From Saccharothrix saharensis (GTDB lineage Bacteria > Actinomycetota > Actinomycetes > Mycobacteriales > Pseudonocardiaceae), in assembly GCF_006716745.1 (NCBI RefSeq), contig NZ_VFPP01000001.1, positions 2,666,001 to 2,730,000 of the forward strand: a stretch of DNA of 64,000 nt, read 5' to 3'. This document shows, piece after piece, positions 4,336 to 62,841 of this stretch. A program made the position numbers and the translations under genes. How positions within the stretch are numbered: position 1 is the stretch's first letter; the number at the start of each line of letters is the position of its first letter. Under the pieces are notes generated by a model. That model worked only from the letters and a program-made list of their open reading frames with translations. It searched no databases and had not been told where the DNA came from.

Positions 4336-6300
4336 ATGACAGGTTTGTTCACGTCCCGGGAAGCGGCTGCCGGAGACCTCGTGGCCGAGCTGCTGGACAT
4401 GCTGGCCAGCGGCGCGCCCACGGACGCGTTCGAGACGCTGCTGGACGACGACAGCAGGCTCGGCGGGACCGCGGGGTCGACACCCGACGTGAAGGCCGCG
4501 GTGTGGCGCGCCATGCGCGTGCACGTCCACATCCAGCGCGGGCGCACCCGCGAGGCGGGTCTCGCCGCCCTGGTCGACGCGGCCCGGGAGCTGGCGTCAC
4601 CGCACGACTCGATGGCCGCGCTGCTGCACGCCATCACGCGGCGGGCCCGTCAGCTGCTCCACGTGGACATGGCCTACATCGCGCTGCTCGACGAGGAGCA
4701 GCGCTACAGCAGGGTGCACGCCACGGACGGCCACACGTCCAGCCTGAGCGTGGGCCTGCGGCTGCCCGTCGACGGCGTCGCCGCCGTCGACCAGCCCGAC
4801 GGCGCACCGTTCGCCACCCACAACCTGCTCGCCGACGAGCGGATCACGCTCAGCCCGGCGTTCGAGGAGATGGCCAGGGCCGAGGACCTCCGCGCGGTGA
4901 TCGCGGTGCCGCTGGGCGACCGCTCGCACCACCACCGCGGCGTGCTCTACGTGGCCAGCCGCAAGGTCCGCCACTTCACCGCCGACGAACGCTCCCTCAT
5001 CGGCTCCCTGGGCATCCTCGCCGGCCTCTACATGGAGACCACCCGGGCACGCCTCGCCGCGCAGGCGCGGACGGCGGAGCTGGAGGCGCGGCTGTCCCAG
5101 CTCACCGCCACCGCCGAGGACGCGCACGAGCACCACGACTTCCAGACCGCGTTGCTGGACATCCTGTTCTCCGAGGACGACCTGCACGCCACCGCCGCGG
5201 CCGGCGCGGAGTGGCTGGGCGGGAACATCGCGGTCTACCACGCGGACGGCGAACTGCGCACCGCCGCCGGTGAGCCCGCCGACGTCGACGACCCCGCCGC
5301 GCTCGCCGCCGTGCCGGGCCTGCGGACGGGCGAACCGGCCATGGTGGACCTCGGCGTGTGGGTCGCTCCCCTGTGCTGGCAACAGGAACACCTCGGCACC
5401 CTCGTGCTGCGCGGGCCCGAGAGGATGACCGAGCGGGAACGCGGCCGGCTGCGCCTGCTCGCCCGCACCATCGTGCTGGTCCTGCGGCGCGACGCGCTCG
5501 CGGCCGGTCCGACGGGCGAGACCCGGGACCGGTGGCTCGACGACGCGCTCGGCGACGAGCGGCGCGCGCCGGACCGGCTGGCCGAGCGGGCGAGCCGGAT
5601 CGGGCTGGACCTCGCGGAGCCCTACCTGGTGCTGGTGGCGAAGCCGGAGGGCGAGCTGCTGTGCCCGGCGCAGGCGTGGGCGGGGTCGTACGTGCAGCGC
5701 GTGAACGGGCTGCGCGGTTCCCGCGACGGCAACCTGGTCCTGCTCCTGCCCGGCGCGGACGCGAGCGGCGCGGCGCGCGAGGTGTCGTCCGCCTTGGAGT
5801 CCGCGCTGGGCGCGCCCGTCTCGGTCGGCGCGGCCGGCCCGCTCACCGGCGCCGCCAAGGTCCACGACGGGTACCGCGAAGCGGTGCGCTGCGCCGACAC
5901 CGTGATCGCGCTCGGTGTCGTGGGCGGTGCCGCGTCGGCGCGCGACCTGGGTTTCGTCGGCGCTCTGATGTCGCGCAACCGCGACGCGGCGGGGTTCGTC
6001 GAGCAGGTCATCGGGCCGGTGATCGACTACGACCGGGAGCGCTCGGCCGACCTGCTGCCCACGTTGCAGGCGTACTTCGAGGAGGGTGGCAGCCCGACCT
6101 ACGCCGCGGCCCGCCTGCACGTGCACACCAACACCGTCACCCGCAGGCTCGACCGGGTCAAGGACCTGCTCGGGCCGGGGTGGCAGAAACCCGACCAGGC
6201 ACTGGAGATCCAGCTCGCGCTGCGCCTGCTGCGCGTGCGCGACCTCCTCGAACACCGACCGGTCACCGCGCGGACGCCCCGGCTCCCCGCGCGACCGTGA
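4336..6300 (+). CDS. GAF-PucR (CdaR-like) transcriptional regulator
   Basis: A 654-residue regulator. A GAF sensory domain spans roughly residues 90-235 ('ITRRARQLLHVDMAYIALL'). A linker with a second degenerate sensor-like part follows, then a GGDEF-like CdaR region. The C-terminal PucR-type HTH lies at about residues 570-635 ('AYFEEGGSPTYAAARLHVH', 'NTVTRRLDRVKDLLG'). Such proteins sense small ligands and activate catabolic genes. The ATG at 4336 gives the first convincing residues; an alternative in-frame start at 4288 adds 16 residues and neither has a strong ribosome site. The flavoprotein gene 47 bp downstream is on the same strand and is a plausible co-transcribed gene or target. Confidence 0.83.
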   Translation: MTGLFTSREAAAGDLVAELLDMLASGAPTDAFETLLDDDSRLGGTAGSTPDVKAAVWRAMRVHVHIQRGRTREAGLAALVDAARELASPHDSMAALLHAITRRARQLLHVDMAYIALLDEEQRYSRVHATDGHTSSLSVGLRLPVDGVAAVDQPDGAPFATHNLLADERITLSPAFEEMARAEDLRAVIAVPLGDRSHHHRGVLYVASRKVRHFTADERSLIGSLGILAGLYMETTRARLAAQARTAELEARLSQLTATAEDAHEHHDFQTALLDILFSEDDLHATAAAGAEWLGGNIAVYHADGELRTAAGEPADVDDPAALAAVPGLRTGEPAMVDLGVWVAPLCWQQEHLGTLVLRGPERMTERERGRLRLLARTIVLVLRRDALAAGPTGETRDRWLDDALGDERRAPDRLAERASRIGLDLAEPYLVLVAKPEGELLCPAQAWAGSYVQRVNGLRGSRDGNLVLLLPGADASGAAREVSSALESALGAPVSVGAAGPLTGAAKVHDGYREAVRCADTVIALGVVGGAASARDLGFVGALMSRNRDAAGFVEQVIGPVIDYDRERSADLLPTLQAYFEEGGSPTYAAARLHVHTNTVTRRLDRVKDLLGPGWQKPDQALEIQLALRLLRVRDLLEHRPVTARTPRLPARP

Positions 6301-6347
6301 CCGTGCGTCGTCCCCCAGAGAAACCGTCCCGACCAGAAGGTGAACAC

Positions 6348-6737
6348 ATGAGCGTCATCCCGGACAGCCACCGCGATCTCCTGGAACGGCCGCTGTACAC
6401 GCATCTGGCCACGATCCGGCCGGACGGGAAGCCCCAGGTCAACCCGATGTGGTTCGCCTGGGACGGTGAGCACGTGCTCTTCACGAGCACGACGTTCCGC
6501 CAGAAGCACAAGAACGTGGCCGTCCACCCGGAGGTCGCGCTGTCCATCAACGACCCGGAGCGGCCGACCAGGTACCTGGAGGTCCGCGGCGTGGTCGAGC
6601 GGATCGAGGACGACTCGCAGGGCCGGTTCTTCATCGAGATGGCCGCGCGGTACGGGGTGCGGATGGACGGCCCGCCGTGGGACGCCCGCTACCGGGTCGT
6701 CTACGTCGTCAAGCCGACCAGGGTGAGCAAGCAGTAA
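6348..6737 (+). CDS. PPOX-class F420/FMN-dependent oxidoreductase
   Basis: A 129-residue split-barrel flavin-binding protein of the pyridoxamine-5'-phosphate-oxidase-like superfamily. The strand 'YTHLATIRPDGKPQVNPMWF' and the later 'FTSTTFRQKHKNVA' and 'YLEVRGVVE' are typical of actinobacterial PPOX-class F420-dependent enzymes (TIGR03618-like), which reduce or bind deazaflavin-linked substrates. AGAAGGTG precedes the ATG by 5 bp. The gene follows the PucR regulator by 47 bp and is terminated by a hairpin shared with the convergent hydrolase gene. Cofactor choice between F420, FMN and heme cannot be settled from sequence. Confidence 0.8.
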   Translation: MSVIPDSHRDLLERPLYTHLATIRPDGKPQVNPMWFAWDGEHVLFTSTTFRQKHKNVAVHPEVALSINDPERPTRYLEVRGVVERIEDDSQGRFFIEMAARYGVRMDGPPWDARYRVVYVVKPTRVSKQ

Positions 6738-6747
6738 CCGATCACCC

Positions 6748-6790
6748 CGCCCCCGACGACTCCACGCGGACGCCGTGGTCGTCGGGGGCG
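6748..6790. terminator. Bidirectional hairpin between convergent genes
   Basis: CGCCCCCGACGAC (6748-6760) pairs with GTCGTCGGGGGCG (6778-6790), and the stem can continue inward through CCACG/CGTGG with one bulged base. It serves both the PPOX gene and the convergent hydrolase. Confidence 0.7.
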
Positions 6791-6810
6791 TCGAGCCGGC
6801 GGCCCGGGGG

Positions 6811-7701
6811 TCACGCGGACGACGTGGTGGCAGGTCGGGTGGTGGCCACGGCCTCCAGGAAGCCGGCGATCAGCGGTGCGATCTCGGGTAGGTGGTCCTC
6901 CAGTGCGAAGTGGCCCGTGTCGAACAGGTGCAGCGCCGCGTCCGGCACGTCGCGCAGGTACGCCCGAGCGCCCGCCTCGGTGAAGAACGGGTCGTTGACG
7001 CCCCACGCGATCAACGTCGGCGGGCGGTGGCGGCGCAGCCACGCCTGCCAGTCCGGGTAGGCCGCGACGTTCCGGTGGTAGTCGTAGGCCAGCGCGAGCT
7101 GCGCCTCCTTGCGCCCCGGCCGGTCCAGGAAGAGCTGGTCCAGCAGCCACCCCTCCGGCGCGACCAGCCCGGGGTCGGCGGTGCCGCCCTCGTACTGGCC
7201 GCGGGTCGCGTCGAGCGTGAACAGGTCCAGGATCGTCCGCTCGCCGCCGGGCGTCGCGGGGGTGAGGGCGATGAACTCCCGGGCCGCGGCCGACAGCCCC
7301 TCGACGTAGGCGTTGCCGTTCTGCACGACCAGCCCGGCGACCCGCTCCGGGTGGCGCGCCGCCACCCGGAAGCCGACGGGTGCGCCGAAGTCGAACAGGT
7401 ACAGGGCGAACCGGCGCAGGCCCAACCGGTCGACGAAACCCCCGACCACCTCGGCGAGGTGGTCGAACGTGTACGTGAAGCCGTCGGGGACCCGCGTGTG
7501 CCCGAAGCCGGGGTAGTCGGGCGCGATGAGCCGGTACCGCGCGCCGAGCGCGTCGAGGAGCCGGCGGAACTGGTGCGACGCGGACGGGAAACCGTGCAGC
7601 AGCAACAGGACCGGCGCGTCGGCGCGGTCCGGCAGCGACTCCCGGTAGAAGACCTCCACCCCGTCGACGTCGACGTGCCGGTGCGCGACCCGGGCGATCA
7701 T
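6811..7701 (-). CDS. Alpha/beta hydrolase, Asp-nucleophile type
   Basis: A 296-residue alpha/beta hydrolase. The oxyanion-hole HGFP motif is at residues 36-39. The nucleophile elbow reads 'LFDFGAPVG' with Asp104 instead of Ser, as in epoxide hydrolases and haloalkane dehalogenases. The catalytic His is in 'DTGHFALEDH' near the C-terminus. The ATG at 7701 has GGAGG upstream. It is divergent from the CGNR regulator at 7786 across an 84-bp promoter region holding a palindrome, so the two are probably co-regulated. The likely substrate is an epoxide or a haloalkane, but ester or C-C hydrolase activity cannot be excluded. Confidence 0.82.
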   Translation of the reverse strand: MIARVAHRHVDVDGVEVFYRESLPDRADAPVLLLLHGFPSASHQFRRLLDALGARYRLIAPDYPGFGHTRVPDGFTYTFDHLAEVVGGFVDRLGLRRFALYLFDFGAPVGFRVAARHPERVAGLVVQNGNAYVEGLSAAAREFIALTPATPGGERTILDLFTLDATRGQYEGGTADPGLVAPEGWLLDQLFLDRPGRKEAQLALAYDYHRNVAAYPDWQAWLRRHRPPTLIAWGVNDPFFTEAGARAYLRDVPDAALHLFDTGHFALEDHLPEIAPLIAGFLEAVATTRPATTSSA

Positions 7702-11855: not shown

Positions 11856-12269
11856 TCAGCGCAGCAGCGCTTCGACGTCGGCGAAGTCGATCCGCTCCTG
11901 GCCGAGCGGCACGAGCGCGCACGTGGCCCGGACGAACCGGGCCACCGCCTCGGTGACCAGGACGACCTCGCGCCGGCCCGGCGACTGGTCGCGCGCGACC
12001 TTCCGGATCTTCAGGTTGCGCCCGTTGATCCGGGTGATGACCACGTCGAGCGCGCCGGTCTCCGCGCCGTCCTCCCGGCACGCGACGGCCTCCACGAGCA
12101 GGTCGCGCGCGAACACCCACTCGACCCACCGCCGGACGGTCCAGTCCCGCACGCGCACGACGACCGCGCACGGGTCGGCCGGGTCGTAGACCAGGCGCAC
12201 CGCCACGCCGGTCAGACCCATCGCGCCCGTGGTGTCGATGATGATCGGTGCCCCCACAGCGTTCCTCAC
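11856..12269 (-). CDS. SsgA-like (SALP) sporulation/cell-division protein
   Basis: A 137-residue protein matching the SsgA-like family of morphologically complex actinomycetes: 'VRLVYDPADPCAVVVRVRDW', 'WVFARDLLVEAV', 'DVVITRINGRNLKIRKV' and 'FVRATCALVPLGQERIDF' follow the family pattern. SALPs recruit division proteins and direct septum formation and wall remodelling during sporulation. Two in-frame GTG codons could start it, at 12269 and 12257; the second has GAGGA 5 bp upstream, giving a protein four residues shorter. A small gene of unknown function lies 51 bp upstream on the same strand and may be co-transcribed. Confidence 0.85.
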   Translation of the reverse strand: MRNAVGAPIIIDTTGAMGLTGVAVRLVYDPADPCAVVVRVRDWTVRRWVEWVFARDLLVEAVACREDGAETGALDVVITRINGRNLKIRKVARDQSPGRREVVLVTEAVARFVRATCALVPLGQERIDFADVEALLR

Positions 12270-41461: not shown

Positions 41462-44400
41462 TCACCCTCTCCTCGGCTTGGTGACCCGCACGACCACGCT
41501 GGTCTGTGAAGGGCTGTGCCCGCCGTCGCCCACGTAGCGCACCACCAGGGTGTGCTCGCCGACGCGCAGGCCGCTGGTGTCGAGCGACAACCTCGCGGTC
41601 CCGCCCGACAACGTCGCCGACGCCAGCGGCCCGGAGGACCCCAGCAGCCGGACCTCACCGGTCGGCGTCGTGCCACCGGACGTGCCGACCTTCACGGTCA
41701 GCGGGACGACGGCGCCCTGCTCGACCTTCGGCTTCGACGGCGTCACCGTCGTCGTGGTCGACTTCAGCTGTGCCTGCTTCGCGGGCACCACGACCGTGCC
41801 GGGCTCCTCGACGTTGCCCAGCCGGTCGACCGCGCGGAACTGCACCGCGGTCTCGGCGTCACCGACCACGACCGGGGCCGTGTAGGGCCGCCAGTCGGCC
41901 GCGCCGAGCCGGGTCTCGATCCGGTCGACGCCGACGCCGGAGTCCGCGGCGCGGACCGCGACGGTGCGCGCCGCGCTGTCGACCGCGGCGTTCGAGACGG
42001 GCGCGACGCTGTCGATGCCGAACTCCACCGGCCGCACCGCACCGACGTTGCCGGCCGCGTCCACCGCGCGGACCTCGACGGTGTGCCGGCCGTCGCCGCC
42101 GACCTGGACCTGCGTGCCGGGCACCCACGCGCCGCCGTCGACCCGGAACTCGATGCGGTCGAGCCGTCGGTCGTCGGTGGCGGTCGCCGACACGGTGACC
42201 GGGTCGCCGTACCAGCCGTTGACCGTCCTGCCCTGCACCGTCACGTCGTCGACGACCGGCGCGACGGCGTCCGCGGTGCGCAACCGCAGGAAGGTGATCG
42301 ACTGCGCCGGGAAGTCGTAGCCGAAGTCGTTCGACAGCCCGCCGATCTGCCTCGTCGTCGGCACCACCTTGGTCGGGGCGTCCTTGGTGTTGGTGTCACC
42401 GGGCGCGCCGGTCATCTGGATGACCTCGCCGTCGGGCAGCACGCCCGCGTCCGCGACGGTGACCCGCGTGCGGACCGTCTCGGTCGAGGTGTTGACCACT
42501 TTGGCCACGATGTCGCCGCCGGCCTTGTCCCGCGTGACGACCTGGAACAGCTTCTCGTCCGCGCCGGACTCGTACGTCATCTGCAGCTCGCCGTTGAGGT
42601 ACAGCGAGATCGTGTTGCCCGCGACGACCACCTTCACCCGGTAGGTCTCGCCGGTGGCCACGCTGTGGCCCTCGACGGACTCGACCTCGACCGCACTGCC
42701 GCCGGAGGCCTTCTGCAGCACCGACCGGGTGTTGTTCCAGCCGCCGAGGTTCCACCAGTAGAAGTCGTTGGTGCCCTTGGCGCCGAACCCGATCAGGAAG
42801 CCCTCGGCCCCGGAGAGCTTCTTGGCGTCCAGCTCCAGCGTGTAGTTCGTCCAGTCCTTCGCGTACGCGTCGTCGATGGTGCTGCGCGCGTCCGTGGTCG
42901 TCGCCGACGACTGGACGTACTGGCCGTCGGCGACGGCCCAGGTGCCCGCGGCCGGGTTCCACTGGTCCCCGTCGGCGAAGTCGTCGGAGAACAGCGTCGC
43001 GCCGTCGGCGTTGGACGTCACCCGGACGTTGTCGTAGGCGGCGGCGGTGTTCCAGGTGGACAGGAAGACGCCGCCGTTGACGACCGACTGGTTGACCGAG
43101 CCGGTGAAGGTGCTCGGCACGACCTCGTCGCCGACGTTGTTGCCGAACATCTTCTGCACCTCCCAGTTGGGGGTGTTCCACGACTCGTCGTTGTCGAACC
43201 AGATGGCGTCCGGGTTCCACTGCACGTACGACTCGTTGGACAGCAGCGGCGCGTAGGACGCCAGCTTGACCACGTCGGCGTTGCGCTGCAGGCCCGTCAT
43301 GTACGACGCCTCGACCAGGGCGTTGTGGAACGTGTTGCCGCGCGAGGCGTACTCGCCCAGGAACACCTTGGGGCCGTTGCGGTCGTAGTCGTCGTATCGG
43401 TGGTTGTTCAGCAGGAACCAGTCGGGGTCGTTGTAGTAGTGCTCGTCGACCATGTCGACGTTCTGCCGGCGGTTGAAGTCCCACAGGGTGTCGAACCGCG
43501 CGCCCGCGTCGTCCGGGCCGGAGTTGGAGATGATGGTGATCTCCGGGTGACGCGCCTCGATGGCGTCCCGGAAGACCGGGAAGTTCGCCTCGAAGGTCGT
43601 CGTGTTCTCCTCGTTGCCCAGGCCGATCATGTCCAGCCCGAACGGCTCCGGGTGGCCGAGCGCGGCACGCTTCGCGCCCCACTCGGTGGTGACGTCACCG
43701 TTGGCGAACTCGATGAGGTCGAGGGTGTCGTCGACCCAGCGGGCGATCATCGCCGGGTCCTTCATCTCGGGGATGGTGCTGCCGCAACCGTTTGCGCCGA
43801 CCGAGACCACGGGCAGCGGCTCGGCGCCGAGGTCCTCGGCGAACTTGAAGTACTCGAGGTAGCCGATGCCGTAGGACTGGTTGTAGCCCCAGAAGTTCCA
43901 GTTGGTCGGCCGCTCCTCGACCGCGCCGATCGTCTCCTTCCACTGGTAGGTGCGGCGGCGGTCGGTGTAGCCGCTCTCCTCGTAGGTGCGGAACGTGCCG
44001 ACGTTGGTGACGCAGCCGCCGGGGAAGCGCAGGAACTTCGGCTTCATCGCGGCGATCTTCTCGGCCAGGTCCTTGCGCAGCACCGACTTGCCGTTCACCG
44101 GGCCGACCCAGCGGTCCTGCGGCATGACCGAGATCATGTCCAGGCCGACGGTCGAGGCCGCGCCCGCCGTGACGACCAGCCGTGCGGCGTCGGTCGTGCC
44201 GGTCGCGGTCAGCGTGACCGGGTACTGCTTCCAGGTGTCCGAGCCGTCGACGGCCACGGACCCCTCGGCGTAGGCGACCGCGCCGTCCGCGCTGAGCAGC
44301 CGGATCGCCAGGTCCTGCGCGGTCGTCGTGCGCGCCCACACCGAGGCGTCGTACCTCGCGCCCGCCTTGACCGCGAAGCCGCGGTTGTAGCCGAGGTTGC

Positions 44401-45796
44401 GCAGGCCGTCGCCGGGACCGTCGGTGACCAGCCGGAAGTGGTTGCGGTTCAGCGCGTTGAGCCGGGTGTCGTCGTTGACGACGAGCGCCTGCGGAGCCGT
44501 GCCGCCACCGTTGACGACCTCCCAGCCGGTCATGCCGGTGAAGCTCGCGTTGTCCGAGGAGTCGAACTCGAACGACCGGTTGCGCACCAGCTCGGCGTAG
44601 AGGCCGCCGTCGGCCGCGTAGTTGATGTCCTCGTAGAAGATGCCGAACATCGTGTCGCTGATCTGCGCGGCGGCCGCGTCGCCGTCGATGGCCAGCTCCG
44701 CGTCGGACGTGCTGACCTGGGCCAGCTTGAACCGGACGGCGGAGGCCTTGTCGCCGAACGCCAGCGGGTTCTGCCCGCCCGCGTAACCGGTGCCGTCGGC
44801 GTCGCGCAGGAAGAGCTCGCCGCCCGCGGCGTCGGTCAGCCGCACGGGCGTGGCCGCGCCGCCGGTCTGGCCGAGCGCGAGGCGGCCGTCGGTGACGACG
44901 ACCGGGCGGTCGCCCTTGGCGGTGCGCAGGTGGACCGTGCCGTCGGCCTGGGCGGCCGCGGTGAACGCCAGGGTGGACAGCGGCGGCTCGGGCGAGAGGG
45001 CCAGCCCGGCTTCCGCCTCGACCAGGTGGGCGCCCGCGGCGCCCTTGAGCGAGAACGTGCCGCCGGGCTGGATGTCCCGACCCGCGGCGGCGGTGACGCG
45101 GAAGTCGTCGAACGCGGCGTCGAGCGCGGTGCCGTCGAGCGCGCCGAGGGCGTAGACGCCGACCTGGGTCGTCTGGAACGCGGCGGTGACGGACGAGGCG
45201 TCCACCCACGCGCCGGCGGCGTCCTTGTACCGGGTGGTGATCGTGTCGCCGACCCGCTGCAACTGGAGCGTCTCGCCGGTCGAGCCCGGCCGGTCGACGA
45301 ACCGCTCGGCGCGGAACACCGCGGCGGTCTCGACGTCGTTCTCGATCGCGATGCCGGACGGGGCCAGCGTGCCGACGAACGTCAGGCCGGAGCGGACGTA
45401 GTTGTCCATGTCCTGCCAGGCGATCAGACCGGCGCCCTGGTAGGTCTTCGCGACCGGTGCCCGGACGGTCACCTCGGCGGTGAAGTCGCCCGCCGGGACG
45501 TCGACCACGAACACGTTCCGCGCCGTGTTCACCGCCTGGTAGGTGTCACCGGTCTGGCCGGTGACCCGCAGTGATCCGTCGCGGAGCGACCAGGCGCCCG
45601 GGTCCTCGTTGACGACCTCCCACTCCGGCCGGAGCGCCGTCGAGGCGAAGTCGTCCGTCCACGTCTCTCCTTCGACCGCCACCGCACTGGGTGCCGCGGA
45701 GAGCGTGACCCCGATGGTGACCGGCAGAACCGCGGCCACCAGGGCGCTGATCCACCGTCGGCCGGGTCTGCCGCCCGACCGCTGCGCTGTCGTCAT
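41462..45796 (-). CDS. Secreted multidomain GH51 alpha-L-arabinofuranosidase
   Basis: A 1444-residue secreted enzyme releasing terminal arabinofuranose from arabinan or arabinoxylan. It has a signal peptide (to about residue 40) and an N-terminal lectin-like sandwich ('WTDDFASTALRPEWEVV'). A linker with a ricin-like or AbfB-like stretch precedes the GH51 barrel starting near 'ISDTMFGIFYEDINYAADGG'. The acid/base Glu is about residue 729 in 'GLGNEENTTTF' and the nucleophile about 815 in 'VFLGEYASRGN'. A second lectin-like domain ('LFSDDFADGDQWNPAAGTWA') is inserted within the GH51 C-terminal sandwich. Ig-like modules form the tail. Two LacI-type boxes lie upstream. Confidence 0.9.
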   Translation of the reverse strand: MTTAQRSGGRPGRRWISALVAAVLPVTIGVTLSAAPSAVAVEGETWTDDFASTALRPEWEVVNEDPGAWSLRDGSLRVTGQTGDTYQAVNTARNVFVVDVPAGDFTAEVTVRAPVAKTYQGAGLIAWQDMDNYVRSGLTFVGTLAPSGIAIENDVETAAVFRAERFVDRPGSTGETLQLQRVGDTITTRYKDAAGAWVDASSVTAAFQTTQVGVYALGALDGTALDAAFDDFRVTAAAGRDIQPGGTFSLKGAAGAHLVEAEAGLALSPEPPLSTLAFTAAAQADGTVHLRTAKGDRPVVVTDGRLALGQTGGAATPVRLTDAAGGELFLRDADGTGYAGGQNPLAFGDKASAVRFKLAQVSTSDAELAIDGDAAAAQISDTMFGIFYEDINYAADGGLYAELVRNRSFEFDSSDNASFTGMTGWEVVNGGGTAPQALVVNDDTRLNALNRNHFRLVTDGPGDGLRNLGYNRGFAVKAGARYDASVWARTTTAQDLAIRLLSADGAVAYAEGSVAVDGSDTWKQYPVTLTATGTTDAARLVVTAGAASTVGLDMISVMPQDRWVGPVNGKSVLRKDLAEKIAAMKPKFLRFPGGCVTNVGTFRTYEESGYTDRRRTYQWKETIGAVEERPTNWNFWGYNQSYGIGYLEYFKFAEDLGAEPLPVVSVGANGCGSTIPEMKDPAMIARWVDDTLDLIEFANGDVTTEWGAKRAALGHPEPFGLDMIGLGNEENTTTFEANFPVFRDAIEARHPEITIISNSGPDDAGARFDTLWDFNRRQNVDMVDEHYYNDPDWFLLNNHRYDDYDRNGPKVFLGEYASRGNTFHNALVEASYMTGLQRNADVVKLASYAPLLSNESYVQWNPDAIWFDNDESWNTPNWEVQKMFGNNVGDEVVPSTFTGSVNQSVVNGGVFLSTWNTAAAYDNVRVTSNADGATLFSDDFADGDQWNPAAGTWAVADGQYVQSSATTTDARSTIDDAYAKDWTNYTLELDAKKLSGAEGFLIGFGAKGTNDFYWWNLGGWNNTRSVLQKASGGSAVEVESVEGHSVATGETYRVKVVVAGNTISLYLNGELQMTYESGADEKLFQVVTRDKAGGDIVAKVVNTSTETVRTRVTVADAGVLPDGEVIQMTGAPGDTNTKDAPTKVVPTTRQIGGLSNDFGYDFPAQSITFLRLRTADAVAPVVDDVTVQGRTVNGWYGDPVTVSATATDDRRLDRIEFRVDGGAWVPGTQVQVGGDGRHTVEVRAVDAAGNVGAVRPVEFGIDSVAPVSNAAVDSAARTVAVRAADSGVGVDRIETRLGAADWRPYTAPVVVGDAETAVQFRAVDRLGNVEEPGTVVVPAKQAQLKSTTTTVTPSKPKVEQGAVVPLTVKVGTSGGTTPTGEVRLLGSSGPLASATLSGGTARLSLDTSGLRVGEHTLVVRYVGDGGHSPSQTSVVVRVTKPRRG

Positions 45797-54558: not shown

Positions 54559-55194
54559 TCACCTCGCGTCGAGGACCGTCCCAGCCGCTCGGTCCAACGC
54601 CCTCACGACCCAGACGCCGAACTCGACGTCCGCTTCGGCGGCCGCCTTGCGCCAGACCTCGACCCGCGCGCTCGGCACGCTCAACCGGGGCAGCGCGCGC
54701 TGCTCGTCATCGGTCGCACTCCCGAGCCCGCCGCGCACCGCCTGCCGCAACCGGCTGCGGGTCCATCCGTGCCGTTCGGCGAGGTCGAGCCAACGGCTCT
54801 GGTCGGCCGGGGGCAGGGGCGCGACCTCGGCGTGGTGCTGGAAGCTCAGGTCCTTCCGGCGTCGCGGGTACTCCACCTTGCGGGCGACCCACGCGTAGTT
54901 GCGCAGGGTCTGGTAGTCCAGCCCGACCAGGTCGATCGCCTGCCGGTAGCGGTCGCGGTACTTCTCCTTGCCGTAGACGAGCCAGTCGCCCAGGTACCAG
55001 GCGGAGGAGTTGGCGATGCGGGCGACCCGGAGCCCCGCCTGCTGCCAGGCGTCGAACGTCAGGTCGCGGGGGAAGGCGAGCCCGCTGACGGTGGCCAGCA
55101 CCCCGGTCCTGTTCGCCTGATCGGCGTCGACCGCGGTGACCGGTTGTGATCGTGCAACGGTCGGCTCGCGTCGGGCGTGGTGCGCCACTGTCAC
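54559..55194 (-). CDS. LmbU-family transcriptional regulator
   Basis: A 211-residue protein of the LmbU/NovE/HmtD-type regulators found in lincomycin, novobiocin and related antibiotic clusters. The conserved core is 'GLAFPRDLTFDAWQQAG', 'IANSSAWYLGDWLVYGKEKY', 'LDYQTLRNYAWVARKVEYPR' and 'LSFQHHAEVAPLPPADQ'. LmbU proteins bind DNA and activate biosynthetic genes. GTG at 55194 has GAGGGGAGC about 9 bp upstream. The gene is divergent from a STAND-LuxR regulator, and the 307-bp space between holds clustered CAGGGGGT elements that recur before the P450/oxidase pair 4 kb away. No classical biosynthetic core gene is within the window. Confidence 0.88.
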   Translation of the reverse strand: MTVAHHARREPTVARSQPVTAVDADQANRTGVLATVSGLAFPRDLTFDAWQQAGLRVARIANSSAWYLGDWLVYGKEKYRDRYRQAIDLVGLDYQTLRNYAWVARKVEYPRRRKDLSFQHHAEVAPLPPADQSRWLDLAERHGWTRSRLRQAVRGGLGSATDDEQRALPRLSVPSARVEVWRKAAAEADVEFGVWVVRALDRAAGTVLDAR

Positions 55195-55270
55195 TGCGAT
55201 CGCTCCCCTCGGCCTGTCCCCGGTCGCGGACGGCTTCGCCGCCGGCCGGCGGAACAAGTCTCGGCCGCGC

Positions 55271-55294
55271 CACCCCCCGTATCGCCAGGGGGTG
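55271..55294. promoter_or_regulatory. Inverted repeat CACCCCC-N10-GGGGGTG
   Basis: CACCCCC (55271-55277) and GGGGGTG (55288-55294) are perfect complements; the right half is part of CCAGGGGGTGG. It lies 77 bp upstream of the LmbU-like start codon. Confidence 0.55.
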
Positions 55295-55311
55295 GCCACG
55301 CAGTTCTCGGG

Positions 55312-55337
55312 TCAGGGGGTCGCCCGCCACCCCCTGA
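55312..55337. promoter_or_regulatory. Perfect operator TCAGGGGGT-N8-ACCCCCTGA
   Basis: Nine-base arms at 55312-55320 and 55329-55337 are perfect complements, 118 bp upstream of the LmbU-like start and 164 bp upstream of the LuxR-like start. The same core, CAGGGGGT/ACCCCCTG, appears three times at 59389-59442. Confidence 0.65.
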
Positions 55338-55501
55338 TCACGACGAGAGCGCCGTCTTCCGCGAATCGGGTGGACGTGGTTCCGCGTTGCGGGCACGATC
55401 ATGGGCTGGTCACGGCCCGGAGTGCGTCGATCACCACCGGTGAGCCGCGTTGGACGGGGCGCGGACCGACGCGGACGATGTGATCGGTTGGGGGGCGGCG
55501 A

Positions 55502-58054
55502 GTGACGACGGGTCGAGGTGGGTATCCGCAGGGGGAAGCGACGGCGCTGATCGGGCGGGACGCGCTGATCGCGGACGTGGTGGCCTTCATCGAGGGGCAG
55601 GGCCACAAGAGGGTCCTGACGCTGCTGGGCCCGGGCGGTGTGGGCAAGACCAGCCTGGCCGAGGAGGCCGCGCGGCGCGTGCGGGATGACCCGGCGGTGG
55701 GCGGCGCGGCGCGGCGTGACGTCGCCCTCGCCTACCTGGCCGAGCTGAAGGCACCCGACGAGGACCGGCTGCACCACCTCGTCCTGCGGGCGTTGGAGAT
55801 CACCGACCAGGGCGTCGACCGGCCGCTGCCGGTGATCGTGGACCACCTGCGCCGGCGTGAGCAGGCGGGCCGCCGGACGCTGCTGGTGCTGGACAACTGC
55901 GACCACCTGCTCGACGACGTCGTGGACCTCGTCGAACGGCTGCTCGACGAGCTGCCCGACCTGCGGGTGCTGCTGACCAGCCGGGAAACGCTGGAACTGG
56001 CCAAGGAGCTGGTGGTCGCGGTGCCGCCGCTGGCGCTGGAGCCCTCCGAGTGCACCGGTGGTGCCGACTACCGGGACCAGTCGGACGGGCCGCTCAGCGA
56101 CGCCGAGCGACTGCTGGTGCAGTGCCTCAACGACCGGGGCATGCGGCTGACCCCGGACGACGACTGGGAAACTCTGCGCCGGTTGGTGGCGTGGACCGAC
56201 GGCATCCCCCTGGTGCTGATCTTCGTCGCGGTTCGGCTGCTGGGCGGCATGGCCCCGCGCGAGGTGCTGGAGCGCCTGGACAAGGGCAGGTTGCTGCACG
56301 CGCGGGCCGGTGGCCGCCGCAGCCGCCGGCAGGGGCTCAAGACGCACCACCCGTCGCTGACCGCGATGATGGACGACAGCTGGCGCTCGTTGACCCCTCA
56401 GCAGGCCGCCCTGGCCGCTCGCATCAGCGTGTTCGCCGACGGCTTCACGGTCGGCGACGTCGAGGCGGTGTGCGCCGACCCGGAGGTCGTCCCGAACGGT
56501 GACGAGCCCGGCGGTGCCGTGCGCGTGCACCGCGCGGAGGTCGCCGACCTGGTCAACGACCTGATCCAGAAGTCGCTGATCAAGCGGCACGGTCCGGGCA
56601 AGCTCGGCCAGCTCAACCCGGTGCGCGAGTACGCCGAGGCGCGCCTGGTCGACCGCGGCGAACCGGAGTCGGTGCGCACCCGCCACGCCCGGCACTTCCG
56701 CGACCTGGCCAAGCACTACGCCGACACCTGGTACGGACCGCGGGAGGTCGAGCTGCTGCGGCGGGCGAACGACCAGATCGCCAACTTCCTCGCCGCGATG
56801 GACTGGTGCGCCGAGACCGCGAGCGACCAGGCCCGCACCGGCCTCGAGATCGTCTTCCACCTGGCCAGGTTGCGCCTGCCGTTCTTCTTCGCGCGGCTGG
56901 GCGAGTGGTGCGACCGGTTCGCCGGGTTCCTCGACCTCGTGCCGGTCGAACCCACGCCCGAGCGCATCGGTTCCTCGGCGTTGCTGGGCTGGATCAAGCT
57001 GTGCCAGGGGCTGCCCGAGCAGGCCGAGATCCACCTGCGCCACTGCCGCGAGCTGGTGGCGATGACCGACACGCCCGCCGACGACGTCGCCCCGGTGGTG
57101 TTCCTGGAAGGCGCCTGGCTGATGGAGGGCACGGGCACGCCCGACTGCATCCAGGTCCTCGGGCGCGCGGTGGACCTGTTCGCGCGGTCGGGCCCGGAGT
57201 TCGACGGCGACCGGGGCAACTCCCTGCTGATGTGGGCGCTGGGCGCCGGGTTCTGGGGCGACGACGCCACCGGGACCCGCATCGCGCAGCGCTGCCTGGA
57301 CGACGCCCGGGCCGCCGGAGCCGAGTGGGCGATCAGCTGGGCGCAGTGGGCCAGGGGCTTGGCGCCGTTGATGCACGGGCGCCCGGTGGAGGCCGTCCAG
57401 TGGTTCCGCGCCGGTCTGGAGACGCAGATCGACCTGCGCGAGCGGTGGGGCTCGACCTGGGGCAGCGAGGCGTGCTTCTGGGCGCTGGCCGCCATCGCCG
57501 GGCGGCTGGAGGCGGGCAACGCCGAGACCGGCGCCCGTGAGGTGGCCGAAGCCGCCGCGATCCTGATGGGCGGCGCGCTGGCCATCCAGCGCGACACCCA
57601 CGTCAACGTGATCGGCCTGGTCCCGTTCCGCCGGGAACGCGACCGCGCCCACGCCACCCTGGAACGGGTGCTGGGCCGGGATCGCTTCCGGGAGTGCTTC
57701 GACAAGGGCGCGGCCATGCCCGCCGTCGAGGTGCACCACCTGGCGCTCACCGCGCACATCGTCGCGGGCGACACGCTGAGACGACGCGAGGAGCGTTACG
57801 CCAACGCCTCCTGGAGCACGTTGACGCCGCGGCAGCGGAAGATCGCGGACCTGGTGTCCCAGGGGCTGACCAACCAGCAGGTCGCCGGGAAGGTGCACAG
57901 CTCGCGCGGTGCCGTCGAACAGCAGTTGACCGTCATCTACCGCACCCTGGGCGTCACCGACCGCACCGCCCTGACCGACTGGATCGAGCGGATGCACGAC
58001 GGCGCGTCCACGCCGGCGACCGCGGGGTCGGACGGGCGGTCACCCGGCCGGTGA
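55502..58054 (+). CDS. STAND-ATPase LuxR-family regulator paired with LmbU
   Basis: An 850-residue regulator. The P-loop 'LLGPGGVGKTSLAEEAAR' is at about residues 40-57, Walker B 'LLVLDNCDHLLDD' near 128, winged-helix and TPR-like regions fill the middle, and a LuxR HTH occupies about 768-840 ('LTPRQRKIADLVSQGLTNQQ', 'VHSSRGAVEQQLTVIYRTLG'). GTG at 55502 follows GGGGGGCGGCGA. It is divergent from the LmbU-family gene; co-occurrence with clustered CAGGGGGT elements makes it a candidate for binding them. Its 3' end overlaps the 3' end of the convergent P450 gene by 15 bp. An effector is unknown. Confidence 0.87.
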   Translation: MTTGRGGYPQGEATALIGRDALIADVVAFIEGQGHKRVLTLLGPGGVGKTSLAEEAARRVRDDPAVGGAARRDVALAYLAELKAPDEDRLHHLVLRALEITDQGVDRPLPVIVDHLRRREQAGRRTLLVLDNCDHLLDDVVDLVERLLDELPDLRVLLTSRETLELAKELVVAVPPLALEPSECTGGADYRDQSDGPLSDAERLLVQCLNDRGMRLTPDDDWETLRRLVAWTDGIPLVLIFVAVRLLGGMAPREVLERLDKGRLLHARAGGRRSRRQGLKTHHPSLTAMMDDSWRSLTPQQAALAARISVFADGFTVGDVEAVCADPEVVPNGDEPGGAVRVHRAEVADLVNDLIQKSLIKRHGPGKLGQLNPVREYAEARLVDRGEPESVRTRHARHFRDLAKHYADTWYGPREVELLRRANDQIANFLAAMDWCAETASDQARTGLEIVFHLARLRLPFFFARLGEWCDRFAGFLDLVPVEPTPERIGSSALLGWIKLCQGLPEQAEIHLRHCRELVAMTDTPADDVAPVVFLEGAWLMEGTGTPDCIQVLGRAVDLFARSGPEFDGDRGNSLLMWALGAGFWGDDATGTRIAQRCLDDARAAGAEWAISWAQWARGLAPLMHGRPVEAVQWFRAGLETQIDLRERWGSTWGSEACFWALAAIAGRLEAGNAETGAREVAEAAAILMGGALAIQRDTHVNVIGLVPFRRERDRAHATLERVLGRDRFRECFDKGAAMPAVEVHHLALTAHIVAGDTLRRREERYANASWSTLTPRQRKIADLVSQGLTNQQVAGKVHSSRGAVEQQLTVIYRTLGVTDRTALTDWIERMHDGASTPATAGSDGRSPGR

Positions 58055-59308
58055 CGCCACGAGGCCGTCGTCCACCGTCCACCGCACGGGCAAGGCGGTC
58101 AGGCCGCGCAGCACGCCGAAGGTGCGTCGGGGCACGAAGCCGGGCTCGACCGCGAAGTCGCCGAGGGCGTCCAGCAGCTCGTCGAGGACCACGCGGACCT
58201 GCAACCGGGCCAGGTGCTTGCCCAGGCAGTGGTGCGCCCCCGCGCCCCACCCGAGGTGCCGGGTGGGATGGGGGCGGTCGAGGCGGAACCGGTCCCCGTC
58301 CTCGAACACCGCCCGGTCGCGGTTCGCGCTGCCCCACAGCAGCAACAACCGGTCCCCCGCCTGGAGGTCCGCACCGGCCAACCGGGTGCCGTGGCGCACG
58401 GTGCGCCCGGTGGCCGCGACCGCCGACTCGTGCCGGACGCTCTCCTCCACCACCGCGCCCAGCAACGACCGGTCGGCCGTCACCCGAGCCCGCAGGCTCG
58501 CGTCGGAAGCCAGCACGTAGGCCGTGTTGGCGATCGTGTCGGACGCGGTCAAGGTGCCCGCCGCGAGCATCAGGAACCCGTGCTTGAGCAGTTCGTCGTC
58601 GGTCGCCGGCACCCCGTCCACGGCGGCGTTGACCACCGCGCCGAACACGTCGCGCACCGGCGCGCCGCGCCGCTCGCGCACCAACCCGGCCAGCACCTCG
58701 GCCAACCGCCCGCCCGCCGCACCCGCCTGCTCGGCGTCGGCGGCACCGAACAGCTGCCGGGTCAACGCCGCGATCTCCGCGCGGCGGACCTCCGGCACAC
58801 CCAGCAGCGTCACGGTGACCAAAGACGACACGACCGCCGCGAAGTCGGCCACGAGGTCCGCGCGCCCGCGCGGCGCCAGCCCGTCCAGCACCTCGCGGGC
58901 CAGGCGCCGGACGGCGGGCTCGAGACCGGCCGCCGCGGCCGGGGTGAAGAACGGCTGCATCGCGCGCCGCCAGACGGTGTGGGCGGGCCGGTCCGACTCG
59001 AACAGCGGCGCCGTCACCCTGTTCAACGCCGGCAGCACCATCGTGGCGCCCAACCCCTCGACCGCCGAGGAGAACGTGTCGTCGGCCTTGGCCACCGCGT
59101 CGATCTCCCGGGCCCTCGTCACCACGAAGAAGCCGCCGTAGGCCTCGCTGCGCGCCACCGGGCACGCCTCGCGCAGCTCGGCGGTCCGCTCGTGGATCAC
59201 CTCACCGACTCCCGGCGCCAAGTGGTCGAACGCCTCCGCCCAGGGTGGAACGCGGCCGGGTTCGCCCGCGGGAGGGTCCCCTTGCAGCACGCTCTCGTAC
59301 ACCACCAC
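58040..59308 (-). CDS. Atypical cytochrome P450 lacking the I-helix acid
   Basis: A 422-residue P450. The K-helix 'EESVRHES' (ExxR) and the heme loop 'GWGAGAHHCLGKHLAR' (axial Cys361) are present, with Trp in place of the usual Phe. The I-helix reads 'LAAGTLTASDTIANT': aligned to the AGxE/DT motif, the acidic residue is Leu while the Thr is kept. P450s without the acid often show changed oxygen activation or do coupling, decarboxylation or peroxygenase chemistry. Three consecutive GTG codons (59308-59300) could start it; AGGGG upstream favours the last. The divergent flavin oxidase and shared CAGGGGGT boxes suggest joint action on one substrate. Confidence 0.85.
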   Translation of the reverse strand: MVVYESVLQGDPPAGEPGRVPPWAEAFDHLAPGVGEVIHERTAELREACPVARSEAYGGFFVVTRAREIDAVAKADDTFSSAVEGLGATMVLPALNRVTAPLFESDRPAHTVWRRAMQPFFTPAAAAGLEPAVRRLAREVLDGLAPRGRADLVADFAAVVSSLVTVTLLGVPEVRRAEIAALTRQLFGAADAEQAGAAGGRLAEVLAGLVRERRGAPVRDVFGAVVNAAVDGVPATDDELLKHGFLMLAAGTLTASDTIANTAYVLASDASLRARVTADRSLLGAVVEESVRHESAVAATGRTVRHGTRLAGADLQAGDRLLLLWGSANRDRAVFEDGDRFRLDRPHPTRHLGWGAGAHHCLGKHLARLQVRVVLDELLDALGDFAVEPGFVPRRTFGVLRGLTALPVRWTVDDGLVASPAG

Positions 59309-59388
59309 GCCCCTGACCGCTCAACGCCGATACCGCGACCACCCGTGCCCACAGCCCGGCAGACAACCAGGTGCCCACCACCGGAGGA

Positions 59389-59442
59389 ACCCCCTGATAC
59401 CCGTGTCGCTCGACCAGGGGGGTGGGCGGCGGACCAGGGGGT
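59389..59442. promoter_or_regulatory. Three CAGGGGGT-type boxes between P450 and flavin oxidase
   Basis: ACCCCCTG (59389-59396), CAGGGGGGT (59415-59423, with one extra G) and CAGGGGGT (59435-59442). The first two form an inverted pair. They lie 81-134 bp upstream of the P450 start and 173 bp or more upstream of the oxidase start. Confidence 0.6.
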
Positions 59443-59614
59443 CGGCATCCCCACGATAACCGGACAAGCGTCCGACGTGCCCCACCAGGTCCGATCGGGC
59501 GACACCGGACGGCCCGGGCGCGGTACGCGGTTACGCTGCTCTCCCGGCGGTCGCCACGACGGGTGCCGGTGCGCCGGTGGCTCGGCCGGCGCGGGTCCGG
59601 CGATCGGAGCAGCG

Positions 59615-61006
59615 GTGGTGGACCGGGACGGACGGCCGCTGGCCGACGCCATTCGCGCCGGATTCGGCGGCGAGCTGCTGGAGCCGGACGACGCCGGGTA
59701 CGACCGGGCGCGCGTGGTGTGGAACGCCGTGGCGGACCGGCGTCCCGCGGTGATCGCCCGCTGCCGCGGGGTGGCCGACGTCCTGCACGCGCTGGCGGTG
59801 GCGCGGGAGTTCGGTGTCGAGGTCGCGGTGCGCGGCGGTGGCCACGACGTGGCGGGCAACGGCGTGAGCGAGGGCGGCGTCGTGCTCGACCTGTCGCCGA
59901 TGAAGGGCGTCCGGGTCGATCCCGTGCGGCGCGTCGCCCGCGCCCAGGCCGGGCTCACCTGGGCCGAGCTCGACCGGGAGACGCAGGCGTTCGGCTTGGC
60001 CACGACCGGTGGGCAGTGCTCCGGCACGGGGGTCGCCGGCGTCACCCTCGGCGGCGGCATGGGTTGGCTCATGCGCAAGCACGGGCTCACCGTCGACAAC
60101 CTGCTCTCCGTCGACGTCGTGACGCCCGACGGACGGCTGCTCACCGCGAGCGAACACGACAACAGCGAGCTGTTCTGGGGCCTGCGCGGAGGCGGCGGCA
60201 ACTTCGGCGTCGCCACCGAGTTCGAGTTCCGCCTGCACCCGGTCCGCGAGGTCACGGCCGGACTGCTGGTCCATCCCGGCGACCGGCTGGCCGACGTCCT
60301 CGCCTTCTACCGCGACTACGCCGCGACCGAACCCGACTCCGTCACCTCGACCGTCATCGCCCTGACCGCGCCGGTGATGGCCGGCCTGCCCGAATCACTG
60401 CACGGCAAGCCGGCGGTCGCCATCGGCGTGTGCCACAGCGGTCCACCCGAGGACGCCGAACAGGCCCTGCGCCCGCTGCGCGAGTTCGGCCCACCGGCGG
60501 CCGACCTCATCGCGCAGATGCCCTACACGACGCTGCAGAGCATGTTCGACGGCATGCCCGCCGGCGACTACGGCTACCGCCAGAGCATCCGCTCCGGCTA
60601 CCTCACCGAGCTGACCGACGACGCCATCGCCGCCCTGGTCCACCACGCCGGCACCGCCGTGTCGCCCCTGTGCCTGGTCGAACTGCTGCACCTCGAAGGC
60701 GCCGTCGCCCGGGTGCCGGAGGACGGCACCGCGTTCCCCGGCCGCGACGCGCGCTTCTTCTGCATGTTCCAGTCCACCTGGAGCGACCCCGCCGACACCG
60801 CCCACACCGCCTGGACCCGGGCAGCCTGGAACGCCTTCGCCCACTTCACCGACGGCCGCACCCACCCGAACTTCCTCGACGCCGACGAACCCGCCCACCG
60901 CGTCACCGACGCCTACGGCCCACCCAAGACCGCCCGCCTGGCCGCGCTCAAGCGCCGGTACGACCCCACCAACTTCCTCCACCTGAACAAGAACATCCGC
61001 CCGTAG
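59615..61006 (+). CDS. FAD-linked oxidase, berberine-bridge-enzyme type
   Basis: A 463-residue flavoprotein of the BBE/6-hydroxynicotine-oxidase family. The FAD domain contains 'VAVRGGGHDVAGNGVSEGG', whose His is the expected 8-alpha-histidyl FAD link. 'TTGGQCSGTGVAGVTLGGGM' has a Cys near the position used for a second link in bicovalent members. 'LFWGLRGGGGNFGVATEFEF' is the second nucleotide loop, and the C-terminus 'YDPTNFLHLNKNIRP' is the family ending. These enzymes oxidise alcohols, sugars or amines, or close rings. GGAGCAGC precedes tandem GTG codons at 59615/59618. Divergent from the P450. Confidence 0.87.
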   Translation: MVDRDGRPLADAIRAGFGGELLEPDDAGYDRARVVWNAVADRRPAVIARCRGVADVLHALAVAREFGVEVAVRGGGHDVAGNGVSEGGVVLDLSPMKGVRVDPVRRVARAQAGLTWAELDRETQAFGLATTGGQCSGTGVAGVTLGGGMGWLMRKHGLTVDNLLSVDVVTPDGRLLTASEHDNSELFWGLRGGGGNFGVATEFEFRLHPVREVTAGLLVHPGDRLADVLAFYRDYAATEPDSVTSTVIALTAPVMAGLPESLHGKPAVAIGVCHSGPPEDAEQALRPLREFGPPAADLIAQMPYTTLQSMFDGMPAGDYGYRQSIRSGYLTELTDDAIAALVHHAGTAVSPLCLVELLHLEGAVARVPEDGTAFPGRDARFFCMFQSTWSDPADTAHTAWTRAAWNAFAHFTDGRTHPNFLDADEPAHRVTDAYGPPKTARLAALKRRYDPTNFLHLNKNIRP

Positions 61007-62283: not shown

Positions 62284-62841
62284 TCAGACCGCGATCGGTC
62301 CGAAGATCCAGTTCCCCCTGGCGTCCTCCTCCGCGCTGCGGAAGAACTGCTCGTTGGCGGCGTGCAGTTCGGCGCGCTCGAGCGAGCCGTTGCCGTCCAG
62401 GTCGAGCTTGTCGAACGCGGCGTTGCCCGCCTCCTCGGACAGGCGGAAGGCGCTGGCCGCCATGCGCACGTACTCGGTCCTGGTGATCCGACCGTCGCCG
62501 TCGACGTCCATCAGGTCGTAGAAGGCGTCGGCGACCGGTGCGATGTGGGTGCGGTAGCCCTCCTCCGACGTGGTCACGAACCGGTCCATGCCCGAGGAGT
62601 ACTCGGCCACGTCGACGCGGTCGTCACCGTCGGTGTCCATCGGACGGGTGACCGTCTCCCACAACCGGTCGTAGCGGCTCCGGAGGAGTTCGCTCTCGGG
62701 CGAGCCCGGCGCGTACCCGAAAGCGGTGACGAGCCGGTCGGCGGACGCCGTGTAATCCATCCTGTCGATCGTGCCGTCGTCGTCCACGTCCAGCAGGGCG
62801 AAGAGGTGTGCGAGTTTTCGCTTCAGCAGTTCGTTGAGCAT
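62284..62841 (-). CDS. Four-EF-hand calcium-binding protein (calerythrin-like)
   Basis: A 185-residue cytoplasmic protein with four EF-hand loops: 'DVDDDGTIDRMDY' (about residue 18), 'DTDGDDRVDVAEY' (about 69), 'DVDGDGRITRTEY' (about 113) and 'DLDGNGSLERAEL' (about 147). Each keeps the Asp at loop position 1 and an acidic residue at position 12 or close to it, except the first, which ends in Asp. The arrangement is that of bacterial calerythrin/sarcoplasmic-type proteins of actinomycetes, which buffer or sense calcium. The ATG at 62841 has GAAAGGG upstream. It is divergent from the SDR gene across 83 bp. Confidence 0.9.
   Translation of the reverse strand: MLNELLKRKLAHLFALLDVDDDGTIDRMDYTASADRLVTAFGYAPGSPESELLRSRYDRLWETVTRPMDTDGDDRVDVAEYSSGMDRFVTTSEEGYRTHIAPVADAFYDLMDVDGDGRITRTEYVRMAASAFRLSEEAGNAAFDKLDLDGNGSLERAELHAANEQFFRSAEEDARGNWIFGPIAV

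Follow-up and report, generated by a model that had tools for sequence, protein, structure and literature searches.

We identified two arrays of a short G-rich box, CAGGGGGT, in Saccharothrix saharensis. The boxes follow a gene pair that encodes a STAND-LuxR regulator and a cytochrome P450, and they are most likely operators of this regulator, as predicted from sequence. Therein they most likely represent a new putative operator for a known kind of regulator, the LAL/MalT-like proteins.

The window, that is the whole stretch of DNA that was analyzed (64,000 nt), has both arrays in spaces flanked by divergent genes, an arrangement described in the initial annotation and confirmed here from gene calls and domain matches. 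Array 1 lies between the genes of an LmbU-family transcription regulator (54559-55194, minus strand) and a STAND-LuxR (LAL/MalT-like) regulator of 850 aa (55502-58054, plus strand). Array 2 lies between the genes of a cytochrome P450 (58040-59308, minus strand; Pfam p450, 63.6 bits), which is convergent with the STAND-LuxR gene, and an EncM-like FAD oxidase (59615-61006, plus strand; Pfam FAD_binding_4 and BBE), which diverges from the P450 gene. The LmbU-like protein belongs to its family by the NCBIfam model NF038070 (214 bits against a cut-off of 125). Its start is best placed at a GTG with first base 55194, behind AGGGGAG, and the mechanical open reading frame reaches 55299; with the GTG start, array 1 therefore falls outside the LmbU-like coding sequence. 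Among solved structures, EncM is closest to the window oxidase (EncM chains, about 402 bits).

The STAND-LuxR protein combines an N-terminal STAND-type ATPase with Walker A and B motifs (Pfam AAA_16, 41 bits, above the cut-off) and a C-terminal LuxR-type helix-turn-helix (HTH) at residues 773-827 (GerE, 31 bits against a cut-off of 23.5), the two parts by which LAL/STAND-LuxR membership was judged; further traits of this group are a superhelical/TPR sensor region and inducer-triggered, ATP-dependent multimerization. In translation, the ATPase module reads GPGGVGKT (Walker A), LLVLDN (Walker B), TSR and GIPLVL, and an nSTAND1 match of 24 bits fell below the cut-off. A fold model built from two sequences had a mean pLDDT of 42.3, with the HTH region alone being fair, and the nearest PDB relatives of the HTH are ComA, ChrA, NarL and DevR. 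Elsewhere, the window encodes a 185-residue protein with several EF-hand calcium-binding motifs (62284-62841, minus strand) and a 1444-residue protein with alpha-L-arabinofuranosidase, carbohydrate-binding and Ig-like domains (41462-45796, minus strand).

Counted on both strands, exact CAGGGGGT occurs eight times in the window, and five of these copies fall within the two short intergenic spaces. Array 1 (55272-55336) consists of boxes at 55272-55279 (minus, the one-mismatch variant CGGGGGGT), 55286-55293 (plus), 55313-55320 (plus) and 55329-55336 (minus), giving the orientation - + + - with offsets of 14, 27 and 16 bp. Array 2 (59389-59442) consists of boxes at 59389-59396 (minus), 59415-59422 (plus, the one-mismatch variant CAGGGGGG) and 59435-59442 (plus). 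These five exact and two one-mismatch boxes are the seven copies or close variants that the initial annotation had counted, and its perfect pair, TCAGGGGGT-N8-ACCCCCTGA, was located at 55312-55337. The remaining exact words, at 3151, 38499 and 54348, are isolated and reproduce the positions given earlier (about 3150, 38499 and about 54349). A sigma-70 promoter scan returned no match.

The eight exact copies compare with 2.55 expected from dinucleotide shuffles, of which 1 in 100 reached eight, and with 1.5 expected from an order-3 Markov model; the earlier estimate of about five chance copies was thus too high. When one mismatch is tolerated, the count in the window equals chance (80 against 79.9), and the signal of CAGGGGGT therefore lies in its clustering only. 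Four exact pairs no more than 60 bp apart are present in the window, and none of 400 order-3 Markov windows contained any. Among 5189 strand-collapsed 8-mers with at least four copies, CAGGGGGT is alone, for words of at most 12 copies, in forming two clusters, one of them of at least three copies. Thus, the boxes are real and clustered in the window.

The clustering also stands out at larger scale. Throughout the 8.92-Mb genome (one contig), the convergent exact pair CAGGGGGT-N0-30-ACCCCCTG is found at this locus only. Direct exact pairs with N0-30 occupy three places, one of them here; everted exact pairs occupy two places with N0-30, neither of them here, and one place with N31-61, which is this locus. 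Across the family, CAGGGGGT-N6-10-ACCCCCTG occurs in 13 of 390 genomes, and within the genus in 1 of 25 (this genome); no relative of the six query proteins from the window is encoded within 1.5 kb of any of the 12 other places. A separate observation concerns CAGGGGGTGTTCCGCAACCCCCTG (or its reverse complement), which is identical in four genomes of three genera (G137, G146, G130 and G111; loci L111, L112, L114 and L119), at a distance from any relative of the window proteins.

A scan of 84,980 species genomes that detects close relatives only found such relatives of the STAND-LuxR protein at one locus, in Saccharothrix sp. ALI-22-I (L057). This locus keeps the STAND-LuxR gene (63% identity; weak NB-ARC match, below the cut-off) and the convergent P450 gene (76%). 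In its 18.5 kb there is no LmbU match and no EncM-like oxidase, the sole match to the window oxidase having 23% identity. This L057 FAD oxidase (5884-7422) is of the cytokinin-dehydrogenase type, diverges from the STAND-LuxR gene and faces array 1.

In the STAND-LuxR/oxidase space of L057, boxes are situated at 7667 (minus), 7681 (plus), 7708 (plus) and 7724 (minus), so that the orientation and the 14/27/16-bp offsets of array 1 are identical in the two species, and the inter-box DNA has largely diverged. Each L057 box carries one or two mismatches, amounting to 6 of 32 positions against a four-box template taken from the window array. When this template was run over 1,506,784 control positions, drawn from the window and from other loci that overlap in part, the sole better fit was the window array itself (1 mismatch) and the next best had 8; in 5000 Markov randomizations of the L057 spacer, 6 was never reached. 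Chance clustering in GC-rich DNA would agree with the one-mismatch window total and with a negative de novo one-mismatch test described below. However, the empty simulated windows, together with a four-box geometry that returns in the orthologous spacer and nowhere else among the control positions, make this explanation scarcely credible.

The P450 side is conserved as well. Upstream of the P450 gene, an exact everted pair is present in both species, with 41 bp between the boxes in L057 and 38 bp in the window. In the 25 genus genomes, ACCCCCTG-N31-61-CAGGGGGT has three places, namely the window and L057 P450 promoters and one in genome G020, where both strands carry open frames of about 400-500 codons that overlap it. 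The 499-bp upstream region of the L057 P450 gene contains 7 near-boxes against 1.5 expected (0 of 1000 shuffles), and near-boxes are weakly enriched in the L057 STAND spacer (3 against 0.67 expected; 37 of 1000 shuffles). A position weight matrix from the window, applied to the 18.5 kb of L057, gave its three highest scores at 12127, 10147 (inside the STAND gene) and 7725, in this order. In the opposite direction, the L057 matrix placed window boxes at ranks 1, 2, 3 and 11, other places taking the ranks in between, and left two exact boxes below rank 20. The four-box geometry test is the stronger of the two.

The L057 arrangement bears on which protein reads the boxes. The initial annotation had assigned them as an operator to either the STAND-LuxR or the LmbU-like protein; the operator-like behavior is upheld, with STAND-LuxR the better candidate, and the LmbU part is not. 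A reader role for LmbU, with control of both regulator genes and both enzymes, would fit its position facing array 1. Proteins of the LmbU family are DNA-binding, and its S. lincolnensis member, LmbU, controls the LAL-type gene SLINC_0469 according to the available text of the report (PMC10763038), and thus links between LAL and LmbU proteins have precedent. In addition, a palindrome between the LmbU start and array 1, CCGCCGGCCGGCGG (55239-55252), resembles the LmbU core CGCCGGCG given in the accessible part of PMC6510168 but is not identical to it. Nevertheless, both arrays are present at the L057 locus, where no LmbU match was found; the LmbU homologue of Saccharothrix sp. ALI-22-I lies on another contig (L007), without CAGGGGGT nearby. 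Moreover, the fetched flanks of the 24 other LmbU homologue loci in the 25 genus genomes, about 1.5 kb long and shorter in one case, are free of CAGGGGGT. The core CGCCGGCG is missing from 55195-55501 and 59309-59614, which is a weak test, as no more than 5 of 22 LmbU homologues in the genus have the core upstream. L057, the 24 loci without a box and the missing core together disfavor LmbU, and we regard its role as reader of the boxes as improbable.

The inexact palindrome at 55239 may leave room for autoregulation by LmbU. Counts of the core and of CAGGGGG refer to 22 of the 24 LmbU homologue loci, the two weakest (L025 and L026) being left out; CAGGGGG stands just before the GTG start in 14 of these 22 and looks like a ribosome-binding sequence. 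Most LmbU homologues at L003-L015 and L021 have in common an upstream promoter-like stretch, GTGAGCGGAAGTTGACCGGTGTGTGAGG (and close variants of it), and the ribosome-binding sequence CAGGGGGA; a family-wide LmbU promoter seems to exist.

Inverted boxes could also act as RNA or DNA hairpins, in the manner of an attenuator, instead of protein sites. In the window, array 1 can form two strong hairpins (z -3.2 for one strand and -3.1 for the other), and the minus strand of L057 array 2 also folds better than shuffles (z -2.2). However, window array 2 folds no better than shuffles (z 0.1 and -0.5), and L057 array 1 folds weakly and with other pairings (z -1.6 and +1.2) although its box geometry is kept. 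Neither array has an Rfam match or a T-run terminator. Hairpins are disfavored by the two arrays without special folding, and we consider them a very improbable explanation.

Because L057 keeps the boxes and the STAND-LuxR/P450 pair without LmbU or an EncM-like oxidase, we assign the boxes to that pair. The proposal of a dedicated four-gene regulon, or oxidative module, was not borne out: L057 keeps only STAND-LuxR and P450, lacks LmbU and the EncM-like oxidase, and has a different flavin oxidase facing array 1. A STAND-LuxR/P450 core with changeable neighbors appears to fit better than a fixed four-gene unit. LmbU and the EncM-like oxidase look like local neighbors, which may or may not be controlled from the arrays.

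The recognition helix provides a further hint. The predicted helix reads VEQQLT and VEQHLT in the two array-bearing proteins, and VEQ(Q/H)LT occurs in only these two among the proteins aligned; five of the six next relatives have (V/I)ENHLT (the sixth, L064, gave no row). The DNA-contacting positions are presumably those assigned after NarL-type structures. This pattern agrees with STAND-LuxR as the reader, as a correlation in few proteins. Alternatively, a third regulator encoded elsewhere might read the boxes and count the STAND-LuxR gene among its targets, since box ownership by the neighboring STAND-LuxR is inferred and isolated exact boxes occur elsewhere in the window. Such a regulator is nonetheless unlikely, given that the genome has hardly any close exact pairs outside this locus and that the sites accompany the STAND-LuxR/P450 pair from one species to the other.

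Taken together, the boxes are probably STAND-LuxR half-sites, on which the regulator would multimerize in fixed arrays upon binding an inducer and switch on the P450 gene and its own gene. Binding of the inducer would open the ATPase module, and the protein would then form multimers on arrays with a defined box geometry, one of four boxes at the divergent promoter of its own gene and one of three boxes at the promoter of the P450 gene. STAND-LuxR would act on both genes as an activator and not as a repressor. The gene facing each array may be switched on as well, which here would concern LmbU and the EncM-like oxidase, and in L057 the cytokinin-dehydrogenase-like flavin oxidase.

Comparable behavior has been reported for MalT, the STAND-LuxR protein studied in most depth, which multimerizes on its inducer and binds several boxes cooperatively, as described in the accessible part of PMC4381067. 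In Actinoplanes sp. SE50/110, the available text reports inverted MalT boxes, TCATCC-5nt-GGATGA, at 17 start sites (PMC7567727). MalT of E. coli and of Actinoplanes resembles the window protein in having a STAND ATPase and a C-terminal LuxR HTH, and its promoters, as far as those reports go, resemble the present ones in carrying several short G-rich asymmetric boxes, with inverted pairs in Actinoplanes. The differences lie in the word, which is CAGGGGGT and not GGA(T/G)GA, in the four-box array with 14/27/16 spacing, and in the proposed targets, namely its own spacer and the P450 gene. None of the seven boxes is a MalT box: all are (C/A)(A/G)GGGG-type words, and none is GGATGA or GGAGGA. The full-length window protein falls short of the MalT model, and the L057 protein matches its HTH only (29 bits, cut-off 537). 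By analogy, the arrays are of the MalT-box kind with another word.

Other LAL regulators, such as SCO6993 and GdmRI/II, also have an ATP-binding N-terminus and a LuxR HTH; the similarity of named LAL models such as AbsR2 to the window protein is at HTH level only. SCO6993 binds its own promoter at two palindromes, and the part of that report available describes no consensus among its sites (PMC9628970), whereas here one word recurs seven times and its geometry is conserved. LmbU of S. lincolnensis differs from the present system in its core CGCCGGCG, missing from both spaces, and in the boxes being present in L057 without LmbU. EncM-type and cytokinin-dehydrogenase-type oxidases are both FAD_binding_4 proteins beside the STAND-LuxR/P450 pair; the window oxidase is EncM-like and faces P450 across array 2, whereas the L057 oxidase is of the Cytokin-bind type and faces STAND-LuxR across array 1. 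Among the open-access papers searched, none paired ACCCCCTG with LuxR or AGGGGGT with LuxR, Streptomyces and footprint, and the one match for CAGGGGGT with regulator and LuxR concerned Vibrio efflux.

The gene pair extends well beyond the two species. P450 relatives at E 1e-90 or better occur at 36 places in 34 of 390 family genomes, and STAND-LuxR matches at E 1e-60 in 55 of 297; a class-wide STAND-LuxR search at E 1e-90 returned 1 of 394 genomes, its own alone. A STAND-LuxR relative converges on a P450 gene in 15 of 30 fetched loci (window included) from three genera, and genome G232 (L049), of a fourth genus, has the same arrangement. A cytokinin-dehydrogenase-type oxidase is found in the flank of 9 of the 29 other STAND loci, divergent in seven and upstream in the same direction in two. 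Besides L057, these oxidases adjoin STAND-LuxR genes at L036 and L042-L048 (genomes G180, G110, G082, G149, G113, G117, G090 and G057), in several genera and sometimes with a convergent P450. A flavin oxidase with STAND-LuxR, and sometimes P450, is a recurring module of the family.

The expectation that orthologous loci carry the boxes held at L057, the closest orthologue, with its identical geometry, and failed at nearly all more distant loci, where clear arrays are absent. Of the 29 other STAND genes, only those of L057 (3) and G232 (4, none exact) have two or more near-boxes within 350 bp upstream; the G232 count was reached in 5 of 300 shuffles, and about one such case is expected in a set of that size. 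The G232 near-boxes, about 250-310 bp upstream of STAND, read CGGGGGGT, CCGGGGGT, GAGGGGGT and CCGGGGGT in the order + - - +, and might form a third array, from a further genus, a candidate that is weak when taken alone. For the 15 STAND-linked P450 genes other than that of the window, the upstream 350 bp contain five near-boxes in L057, two in each of three loci, and none or one in the rest. L036/L066 has a single exact box near its oxidase start, and no array is present in the third-closest pair, in G014 (STAND 47%, P450 62%). A single G-rich inverted element, which may be an operator or belong to the promoter, lies near the start codon of STAND relatives with about 47% identity (L059-L064); its near-box count is not above shuffles (same genes as L029-L034). 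A de novo one-mismatch 8-mer test on eight STAND/P450 pairs, including the window, found no word above shuffles and thus does not speak for a general occurrence, although it is weak for spacers of about 300 bp; its top word in L057 was ACCCCCTG. Clear arrays are thus found in two species only, and convergent STAND-LuxR/P450 pairs recur in four genera.

A broader reading, which we offer tentatively, joins these observations into a family-specific oxidative module of Pseudonocardiaceae-like actinomycetes. A STAND-LuxR sensor on arrays of fixed geometry might control the convergent P450 and a changeable flavin oxidase. LmbU might have been captured here on the side of array 1 where L057 has its flavin oxidase, forming a two-tier cascade from STAND-LuxR to LmbU, and operators would change from clade to clade as the regulator/P450 pair stays.

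The operators of actinomycete LAL regulators are ill defined; for SCO6993, a consensus could not be predicted, as far as the available text states (PMC9628970). A short box with repeated, conserved geometry is a ready probe for testing the regulator and seeking its inducer, and the arrays offer a route to switching on the P450/flavin-oxidase pair. The regulator/P450 pair is kept across genera, while the adjoining flavin oxidase and the accessory regulator change.
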